From Clostridia bacterium (GTDB lineage: Bacteria; Bacillota; Clostridia; Monoglobales; Monoglobaceae): a stretch of 41,222 bases of DNA. Shown piece by piece: positions 3,681 through 5,704 of this stretch. A program made the translations under genes and the position numbers. The number at the start of each line of letters is the position of its first letter. The first letter of the stretch is position 1. Location: contig JAFYXL010000030.1 of assembly GCA_017546165.1 (NCBI GenBank), forward strand, positions 1 through 41,222, written 5' to 3'. Under the pieces are notes generated by a model. That model saw nothing but the letters and a program-made list of their open reading frames with translations, ran no database searches and was not told where the DNA came from.

Positions 3681-3743
3681 CAATTTCACCATTATCTGTT
3701 TTTCACTGTTCTTTGGTTTTGTCAAGTCAGGGACAAAAAATTG

Positions 3744-3923
3744 TCGATATGCAAACTTCATTTGCTCGATATTTTTACTATCGTAAAATCGATATGTTTT
3801 CCCTCTGGTCAAACTCGATATGATATGAATTCTCGCCCGTAAGGGCATATCGAGTTGCATCAGCAACATATCGAGAATTCTGCAAAGAATTCATATCGAC
3901 GATTTCAAGCTTTGCTTGAAATC
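3744..3923. repeat. Array of TCGATAT/ATATCGA heptamers alternating with short hairpins
   Basis: Four TCGATAT copies (3744, 3766, 3789, 3815) are followed by three in inverted orientation, ATATCGA (3847, 3868, 3893). Between them are small palindromes: GCAAA-CTTCA-TTTGC, TTTTAC-TATC-GTAAAA, GTTT...AAAC, GCCC-GTAA-GGGC, GTTGC-ATCA-GCAAC and GAATTC-TGCAAA-GAATTC. A 10-bp stem, GATTTCAAGC-TTT-GCTTGAAATC, ends it. The heptamer is conserved while hairpin sequences vary but keep pairing. The array turns inside out around 3822-3846. It lies between divergent dihydrouridine synthase and ABC transporter genes and overlaps a falsely open reading frame. Confidence 0.85.
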
Positions 3924-3969
3924 ATTATACCACATAATATTGATTTTTTCAATCCCGATAAACCCTTTA

Positions 3970-3998
3970 TTGACTAAACCCCGAGCTTATGATAAACT
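3970..3998 (+). promoter_or_regulatory. Promoter of the ABC transporter gene
   Basis: TTGACT (3970-3975), a 17-bp spacer and TAAACT (3993-3998), with TG one base before the -10 box, form a good SigA promoter 33 bases before the start codon. Confidence 0.75.
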
Positions 3999-4030
3999 AT
4001 ATCTATAAAAACTTACAGAGGTTTATTTTT

Positions 4031-5704
4031 ATGAAAGATAAGTTAACATTAAAATGGCTGTATGCCAACTCCAAAGGTCAGCTTTGGCGCATCGTCCTGC
4101 TATCTGTTATGCGATGCAGCCTTACCATTTTGGGTGTCACCTTTGCCCTTGTGTCAAGATATGTTATTGACGCAGCAGTTGCCCATAATATTAGCGGCCT
4201 CACTAAAAGTGCGCTTGTGCTCCTTTTATTGATTGCAAGCCAGATCGGCATCCGCCTTCTTGGTCAAAGTCTTGAGGTGGTAATCTGTGCCCGACTTAAT
4301 ATGAAAATCCGGGGCAAGTTGTTTGCATCAATCCTGAAGTGTGACTACTCTGCCCAGGCAAAGTACCACAGCGGCGACCTGCTTACCCGACTCAGCAATG
4401 ATACAAGCATCGTTGCAAGCGGCATAATATCTCTTATTCCAAGTGTTCTGGCACTCATTGTAGGTCTTACCTATGCCCTGATTGCATTGACCCGTCTTGA
4501 TAAAAACTTCGCAATCATTCTGCTTGCAGGCGGAATTCTTTTGCTTCTTGCAATCAGCGCCTTCCGCGGAATTATGAAAAAACTCCACAAGCGTGTTCAG
4601 GAAACCGAAGCCCGTGTCCGTTCCTTCTTTCAGGAATCCATGGGCAGCTTGCTTATGGTAAAGGTTTTCGGCATTGAGGACGCCATCTCACAAAAAGGTG
4701 ACCTTTTGCAAAATGAAAACTACAAAGCACAAATGAAACGCCGAAACCTGAGCATTTTTGCATCAAGCAGTCTGGCATTCCTGTTTAGCATCAGCTCGCT
4801 TTATGCACTGACATACAGCGCTTACCGGCTATACTTAGGTACCATCACCTTTGGTACTCTTACCGCAATACTGCAGCTTGTAAACCAGATCCAGTCACCC
4901 TTTGCCGGTCTTTCCGGCGTTATGCCCCAATACTATGCAATTTTGGCATCGGCTGAACGTATAATTGAAATCGAATCTCTCCCTGAGGAGGACAACAACC
5001 GTGAAAAATTAAACCCTGAAACATCCTACCAAAACTTAACGGAAATTAATTTTACCGATATTTCCTTTAGTTATGGCAGGGATATTGTTTTAGAAAACGC
5101 AAACCTCACCATAGAAAAAGGGGATTTTGCCGTTATCAGCGGTATTTCAGGCATCGGAAAGAGCACACTTATAAAGTTGCTATTGGGTGTGATTTCACCA
5201 AAAGAAGGCAGCATCACACTGAAAATAAACGGTCAGGATATGCCTTGCGGCAAATATTCAAGGCCACTCTTTTCATACGTGCCCCAGGGTAACCTCTTGC
5301 TCTCCGGAACAATTCGGGAAGCTGTGTCAATGGTGGCAGATAACGCTACCGATGAGGAAATAATGGCCGCCGCCGAAATCAGCTGTTGCGCTGACTTTAT
5401 ACAAAAACTACCGCAAGGGCTCGGCACCTACATAGGTGAAAAAGGCTTTGGCTTGTCAGAAGGCCAAATTCAGCGGCTTGCAGTCTGCCGTGCTATCCTT
5501 TCGGGGGCACCAATAATCTTGCTGGACGAAGCCACATCAGCACTGGATGAAGAAACCGAGGCAACGCTACTCCAAAATATCCGCAATATGAAGGGCAAAA
5601 CCTGTATCATAATTTCACACAAACGCGCCGCTTCCGAAATTTGCAACAAGCATATATTTATTGAAAACAAAAAAATAAAAACAACGAAAAACCATTCTTC
5701 TTAA
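4031..5704 (+). CDS. ABC transporter, fused permease and ATPase (type IV exporter fold)
   Basis: A half-transporter of 557 residues that would dimerise in the membrane and export a hydrophobic, peptide or other substrate. The first 310 residues or so hold about six membrane helices. The C-terminal ATPase has Walker A GISGIGKST, the signature LSEGQIQRLA (normally LSGGQ, here with Glu), Walker B IILLDEATSALD and the H-loop IISHKRA. I start it at 4031, where AGAGG lies nine bases upstream and the promoter at 3970-3998 fits; an ATG at 3989 overlaps the promoter. It is a single-gene unit with no partner or regulator next to it, so the substrate is unknown. Confidence 0.92.
   Translation: MKDKLTLKWLYANSKGQLWRIVLLSVMRCSLTILGVTFALVSRYVIDAAVAHNISGLTKSALVLLLLIASQIGIRLLGQSLEVVICARLNMKIRGKLFASILKCDYSAQAKYHSGDLLTRLSNDTSIVASGIISLIPSVLALIVGLTYALIALTRLDKNFAIILLAGGILLLLAISAFRGIMKKLHKRVQETEARVRSFFQESMGSLLMVKVFGIEDAISQKGDLLQNENYKAQMKRRNLSIFASSSLAFLFSISSLYALTYSAYRLYLGTITFGTLTAILQLVNQIQSPFAGLSGVMPQYYAILASAERIIEIESLPEEDNNREKLNPETSYQNLTEINFTDISFSYGRDIVLENANLTIEKGDFAVISGISGIGKSTLIKLLLGVISPKEGSITLKINGQDMPCGKYSRPLFSYVPQGNLLLSGTIREAVSMVADNATDEEIMAAAEISCCADFIQKLPQGLGTYIGEKGFGLSEGQIQRLAVCRAILSGAPIILLDEATSALDEETEATLLQNIRNMKGKTCIIISHKRAASEICNKHIFIENKKIKTTKNHSS

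Follow-up and report, generated by a model that had tools for sequence, protein, structure and literature searches.

The array at positions 3744-3923 of the window, the whole stretch of 41,222 nucleotides analysed here, is a solo, gene-less element upstream of dus. It belongs with its relatives to a family of small mobile DNA elements that seems not to have been described before and is found in Clostridia of the gut and rumen. No earlier description of such arrays was found in the literature searched, although that search was thin on subscription journals and an earlier report is possible. The window copy is probably a solo member of a mobile DNA family that inserts into promoter -10 boxes with a 4-bp direct repeat, and that would rebuild promoters at its target, be recognized by S23/IVP proteins and be moved in trans.

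Architecture of the window copy and distribution of the family

The word TCGATAT occurs exactly on the plus strand at 3744, 3766, 3789 and 3815 and on the minus strand at 3847, 3868 and 3893, so that the seven words and the flip of orientation at the middle described in the initial annotation are both present. In the entire window the word was counted 13 times, seven of them inside the array, compared with a mean of 3.3 and a maximum of 9 in 100 shuffled sequences. Every spacer is a hairpin, and the minus strand of 3744-3922 (179 nt) folds far above shuffled sequences both as DNA (z = -7.8) and as RNA (z = -5.1). The array does lie between divergent genes, as had been noted: dus, encoding a tRNA-dihydrouridine synthase (PF01207; 2757-3680, minus strand), is downstream of the element in its reading direction, and an ABC transporter gene (3989-5704, plus strand) forms the other flank.

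The copy exceeds 3744-3899: past the words lie one more hairpin (3901-3923) and a pair of -10 and -35 boxes (3924-3929 and 3947-3952). In minus-strand order, TTGAAA, a 17-nt spacing and TATAAT precede the leading hairpin (H0); three words and their hairpins follow, then the centre (hairpin plus tail) and four inverted words with their hairpins. The -35 hexamer TTGAAA (3947-3952, minus strand) belongs to a promoter reading into the element and, by analogy with the empty sites described below, would derive from the host target. Based on the junctions defined in two other copies, the insertion point is placed within the -10 box TATAAT (3924-3929, minus strand) after TATA (3926-3929), and the element would begin with ATG (3925-3923). 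The minus strand then carries H0 (3901-3923; GATTTCAAGC AAA GCTTGAAATC), word 1 (3893-3899), hairpin H1 (3875-3892; GAATTC...GAATTC), which covaries across copies, word 2 (3868-3874), hairpin H2 (3854-3867; GTTGC...GCAAC), word 3 (3847-3853) and the central hairpin H4 (3835-3846; GCCC...GGGC). The centre tail GAGAATTCATATC (3822-3834, minus strand) shows complementarity to word 1 together with the 5' arm of H1, and across copies it covaries with H1. The inverted words follow on the plus strand at 3815-3821, 3789-3795, 3766-3772 and 3744-3750, the last being the final one in the reading direction. Between them the minus strand forms H5 (3796-3814; GTTT-GA-CC-AGA-GG-GA-AAAC), with its conserved tandem G.A mismatch, H6 (3773-3788; TTTTAC...GTAAAA) and H7 (3751-3765; GCAAA...TTTGC). 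The 3' tail, CAATTTTTTGTCCCTGACTTGACA... (3697-3743, minus strand, with an approximate 3' end), is of a type common to loci L061, L066 and L089 and contains a -35-like hexamer, TTGACA, at 3720-3725. The copy ends about 60 nt ahead of the dus start.

The canonical layout of the family is four words, a centre and four inverted words, compared with 3+4 words in the window copy, in which one word-hairpin unit is absent from the arm that ends in word 3. From 5' to 3' an element comprises H0, four words with hairpins, the central hairpin with a strand complementary to word 1 and H1, four inverted words with hairpins, and finally either an IVP/S23 gene with an optional cargo ORF or a short tail. The words are near-constant, and the hairpins at each of the seven positions comprise 23-34 distinct sequences in 39 elements. 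Outer-stem pairing was 0.90-0.99, compared with 0.43-0.71 when 3' arms were shuffled among elements. Furthermore, the centre tail pairs with word 1 and the H1 5' arm at 11.1 of 14 positions (9.2 on shuffling), and where word 1 is TCGAGAT the centre tail is altered to match. The spacer palindromes had been described as unrelated but retaining base pairing. This holds among the spacers of the window copy, yet position by position they are homologous to the spacers of other copies. One hairpin retains its tandem G.A mismatch in the TCGATAT, GCGATAT and GCTAAAT families. In H5 of the window and of most other copies the tandem G.A is conserved while the flanking pairs covary, and it may represent a kink or sheared-pair recognition motif.

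The genome containing the window (G000) holds five arrays of the TCGATAT family and relatives hold such arrays too, which refutes chance degeneration of a single occurrence, the outcome against which the initial annotation had proposed a copy search. The TCGATAT three-word pattern was present in 28 of 391 genomes sampled from the class, 25 of which were judged to contain true arrays; the matched sequences in G329, G383 and G408 were judged spurious. The GCTAAAT version was found in 34 of the 391 genomes, and the reversed pattern, used as a control, gave almost no matches in the same set. The same architecture is found in relatives of G000 and in many Clostridia and Oscillospiraceae, the samples originating mostly from rumen and other herbivore gut. 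The heaviest load seen was that of G183 (L352), with 131 TCGATAT and 53 GCTAAAT pattern hits in a 2.2-Mb genome. Among contigs of the viral collection, TCGATAT elements were found in only two, L164 and L182, which are near-identical and possibly represent host DNA or prophage. Departures from the common layout were also observed: TCGATAT and then GCGATAT elements are in tandem at L319, L333 and L342, the second behind the tail of the first; L330 (G042:C97) contains a half array, an IVP gene and a half array in a row, a mosaic of two elements; and L373 (G239:C2 and C49) contains GCTAAAT-hairpin runs of at least five units in one direction, unlike the 4+4 arrangement.

Insertion sites, target repeats and promoters

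Mobility of the elements is well supported by sequence comparison of occupied and empty loci. Joined together, the flanks of L022 align without a break to the sister species G017 at 94%, where the empty site (L392) reads ...GTATGTTATATTAAATTG, and the occupied site reads ...ATATGTTATA / ATGATTTCATC...ACACTGATTC / TATATTAAATTG (slashes denote junctions), with the 4-bp direct repeat TATA. For L357 (G205) the empty counterparts (L407/L410) read ...ATATGGTACAATGAA in G265 and ATATGATACAATAAA in G109, and the occupied site reads ...ATATGGTACA / ATGATTTC...CACTAATTT / TACAATGAA, with the 4-bp direct repeat TACA. Since the two repeats differ, the repeat derives from the target. Both insertions lie in a promoter -10 box with the -35 still 17 nt upstream, and the -35/-10 arrangement of the window copy is that of the occupied and empty sites of L022/L392. 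Comparison with orthologous loci lacking the array, as the initial annotation had proposed, thus gave clean empty counterparts in sister species at two insertion sites only, the window copy not being among them, and the 4-bp repeat is exact in some copies only.

Additional evidence was obtained from nested and shared copies. At L333 a GCGATAT element lies inside the tail of a TCGATAT element, and this tail is uninterrupted in L321 and L033. L022 (G009) and L026 (G005) come from different genera and have unrelated flanks, yet a stretch of about 990 bp, made up of array, IVP, cargo ORF (117 aa) and tail, is 91% identical between them; a second shared unit, with another cargo ORF, links L024 and L203. 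Of nine congeners, only G000 and G001 carry the element at the dus locus and seven lack it, synteny there being too disrupted to define an exact empty site. The two empty-site comparisons, the nested insertion, the multicopy dispersal and the presence or absence between congeners bear out the earlier suggestion of a mobile repeat. At L060 the array is followed by fused remnants of both ends of the IVP gene, as in a deletion derivative, which is the way a solo copy would arise.

A target duplication of 30-40 nt was considered and rejected in favour of 4 bp on the basis of the L022 and L357 empty sites. Likewise, GCATCTAAA was considered as a separate repeat or a long target duplication and proved to be the 3' tail of elements, which also stands alone; the comparison of L333 with L033 and L321, together with the empty sites, explains most cases. 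This motif with about 30 nt around it was observed alone and in tandem without arrays (L025 at 2543 and 2977, L074, L211, and L314 at 1362-1441), and such solitary motifs may mark where elements have been lost or may form a class of promoters.

Of 106 distinct arrays, 46 have a -10-like box immediately before H0. Since the first bases of the element (ATG) complete TATAAT, transcription from the old promoter should run into the element. Many tails end in GGCATCTAAA-N-(A)TT, about 17-18 nt ahead of the duplicated -10 box, and this tail end may serve as a replacement -35 region, with promoter activity predicted from the motif and its spacing. Insertion that rebuilds two promoters would be a neat route to tolerance of the element, and in Clostridia of the gut and rumen it could rewire how genes are expressed. 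Counting against this account of -10-box insertion, about 10 copies lie behind an intrinsic terminator, often that of a tRNA gene, in place of a -10 box.

The linked S23/IVP gene and the mode of movement

In L022, L024, L026, L094, L157 and L203 an ORF begins no more than about 20 nt after the last word; it encodes a protein of 115-120 aa whose sole Pfam match is PF05635 (23S rRNA intervening-sequence protein; E = 3.5e-21) and which matches 2RLD in the PDB (E = 1e-23). Full copies hold this IVP gene and at most one cargo ORF, with no second conserved gene; no transposase was found in the elements, and no element protein has a known catalytic fold. The cargo ORFs behind the IVP gene encode 117 aa (L026, 2059-2412) and 121 aa (L203), are of membrane type or have a hydrophobic N-terminus, and gave no Pfam match. 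A homologue of the first was observed upstream of the L211 element.

Linkage was also evident when PF05635 genes were chosen irrespective of arrays. With a strict detector, an inverted word array was found within 500 nt upstream of 38 of 120 such genes, compared with 1 of 2400 shuffled sequences and 0 of 92 control flanks; by the same detector, the upstream regions of classical IVPs of other Clostridia were without an array. PF05635 was present in 22 of the 25 genomes with true TCGATAT arrays versus 89 of 366 others (p = 2e-10). The words differ by IVP lineage with a constant layout, and include TCGATAT, GCGATAT, GCTAAAT, AGCTAAAT, TGAAATA, ATGAATT, ATGAAG and GTGATATT, among others. On a tree of 83 IVPs the words required 17 label changes compared with 46.8 when shuffled, and none of 200 shuffles was as low. 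TCGATAT and GCGATAT, two words one letter apart, belong to IVPs that form sister clades with good support, and the GCTAAAT IVPs group together across many host families. Within the genus of the window, G008 encodes a GCGATAT-type IVP and holds about seven GCGATAT arrays, versus none in G000. The word co-segregates with the linked IVP's clade, which makes the protein-binding array raised in the initial annotation plausible, and IVP may bind the words and drive or assist movement. The same co-segregation could be plain linkage without binding.

The possibility that the IVP is a passenger, or a regulator that binds leader RNA or DNA for its own expression, with an unrelated host recombinase or transposase moving the elements, is given perhaps one chance in a handful and is a real if lesser contender. 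No catalytic domain was found in the IVP beyond PF05635, solo copies persist in G000 (88% complete) and G001, in neither of which PF05635 was detected, and the array forms the 5' leader of the IVP gene, a natural place for autoregulation. A passenger would not be expected from the co-occurrence of arrays and PF05635 reported above, from word abundance that tracks the matching IVP within a genus, or from an arrangement that is constant across many lineages with different words, in full copies lacking a second conserved gene.

The hairpins bear on whether DNA or RNA is the working form. Loops are TTC, TGAC or TTAC in the first arm and GAA, GGA or GCAA in the second, the two sets being mutual reverse complements. 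Scored on one strand, the ratio of G.T to A.C stem mismatches was 5:14 in the left arm and 13:2 in the right (Fisher p = 6e-4), a small count (34 cells) from hairpins that are related by descent and not phylogenetically independent. Were the structure a single RNA, G.U would be expected to prevail in both arms; the switch suggests DNA hairpins, one strand per arm, similar to the two inverted ends of a transposon. The structured RNA envisaged in the initial annotation is thus possible, yet disfavoured. Movement through RNA, in which IVP binds a structured transcript in the manner of Avd and a host reverse transcriptase copies the transcript into promoters, is accordingly improbable. It would accommodate the strong RNA fold (z = -5.1), the promoter reading into the array and the action of Avd with a reverse transcriptase and structured RNA (PMC12875486). 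However, the strand favoured by the mismatches differs between the arms. In addition, the element begins within the -10 box, and any transcript of the interrupted promoter would start downstream of that boundary, so the element's own transcript would lack its first bases.

Still less credible is a non-mobile cis-regulatory RNA or DNA of host genes, such as a riboswitch-like leader or a regulator-binding array. Copies do lie in the 5' leaders of dus, rnhB-like, yebC and other genes, but the downstream genes are mutually unrelated, other copies follow terminators, and the precise empty sites in sister species contradict it as the sole explanation. Moreover, an Rfam covariance-model search of five loci and the window returned only tRNAs and one chance miRNA hit. 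Co-option of copies as regulators at single loci is possible.

Under the favoured account, a mobile DNA element with IVP as its partner, the two inverted arms would act as transposon-like ends, each presenting hairpins and words on one strand, with opposite strands presented by the two arms. Pentamers of the element's own IVP would bind the words between the extruded hairpins and draw both arms together. The element would then enter a -10 box through cuts staggered by 4 bp, strand cutting and joining being performed by an undetected activity of the IVP or by a host enzyme that it recruits. After insertion the old promoter would read into the element, since its first bases rebuild TATAAT, and the 3' end would supply a new -35-like stretch before the target's own -10, allowing the downstream gene to keep a promoter. 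Solo copies would have arisen by internal deletion, and IVP elements sharing their word would mobilize them in trans.

Relation to intervening sequences and other known elements

To our knowledge, S23/IVP proteins are widespread and have solved pentameric structures, and their function has not been known for decades. The S23 protein of Xanthomonas is a homopentamer of four-helix bundles, and rRNA intervening sequences (IVSs) have long been suspected to be mobile selfish elements with an ORF serving mobility, so that the past mobility of IVP-encoding IVSs is a question of decades' standing (PMC4990558). Like the 23S rRNA IVSs of Coxiella and Leptospira (PMC4990558), the Clostridia elements are small, bounded by self-complementary sequence and associated with a PF05635 protein, which is encoded by full copies; the window copy is without the gene. 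IVSs lie within helices of the 23S rRNA, from which RNase III excises them. The Clostridia elements occupy promoter sites and have word-hairpin arrays, solo copies and a 4-bp repeat; all loci examined were intergenic, at promoters or behind terminators, and none was in a 23S rRNA helix. The odds appear about even that S23/IVP pentamers define an element class as its mobility protein, reading a 7-8-nt word between hairpins and inserting at -10 boxes with both promoters kept, with rRNA IVSs as relatives that landed in rRNA genes. The S23/IVP family can now be linked to an element whose ends and empty sites are known and whose candidate recognition word is specific to its family, which makes IVP binding to the word-hairpin array and movement of the element by IVP testable.

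Other known systems, like rRNA IVSs, each differ from the elements in at least one defining feature tested here. CRISPR was correctly excluded by the initial annotation: the array has no direct repeats of CRISPR length (about 25-40 nt) separated by unique, unrelated spacers, the words being 7 nt and inverted at the centre and the spacers being homologous hairpins between copies. A simple REP was excluded with equal reason, as only the 7-8-nt words are conserved and the palindromes vary with covariation; there is no single conserved palindrome of 20-40 nt with a conserved tetranucleotide. REP/REPIN-type palindromes moved by a Y1 HUH transposase (RAYT, an IS200/IS605-type TnpA_REP) are the least credible explanation, despite being extragenic, multicopy palindromes in inverted pairs, with non-coding copies moved in trans and hairpins that may act on one strand per arm, since the arrays have a different architecture of eight short words with covarying stems instead of one conserved palindrome pair, the word differs per partner clade, insertion yields a 4-bp direct repeat, and the gene adjoining full copies is PF05635 and not the linked REP-type transposase that the initial annotation had proposed to look for. 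MITEs similarly have short non-coding derivatives, coding relatives and a short target repeat (here 4 bp, TATA or TACA), but the usual terminal inverted repeats are absent, the ends ATGATTTCA... and ...CACTGATTC not being inverted repeats by eye and the inversion being internal, and so is a parent transposase.

Avd binds nucleic acid and forms homopentamers of four-helix bundles, a fold that it has in common with S23/IVP. Avd of a diversity-generating retroelement acts with a reverse transcriptase and structured RNA (PMC12875486), but the elements have no reverse transcriptase, template or variable repeat. Some copies are directly behind intrinsic terminators, as in group IIC introns, but the elements have no intron RNA core and no reverse transcriptase. 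Group IIC introns favour sites behind intrinsic terminators. The terminator-side arrays are those of L004, L010, L013, L281, L288, L299, L318, L355, L356 and L390, and the stems of their terminators are alike across word families.
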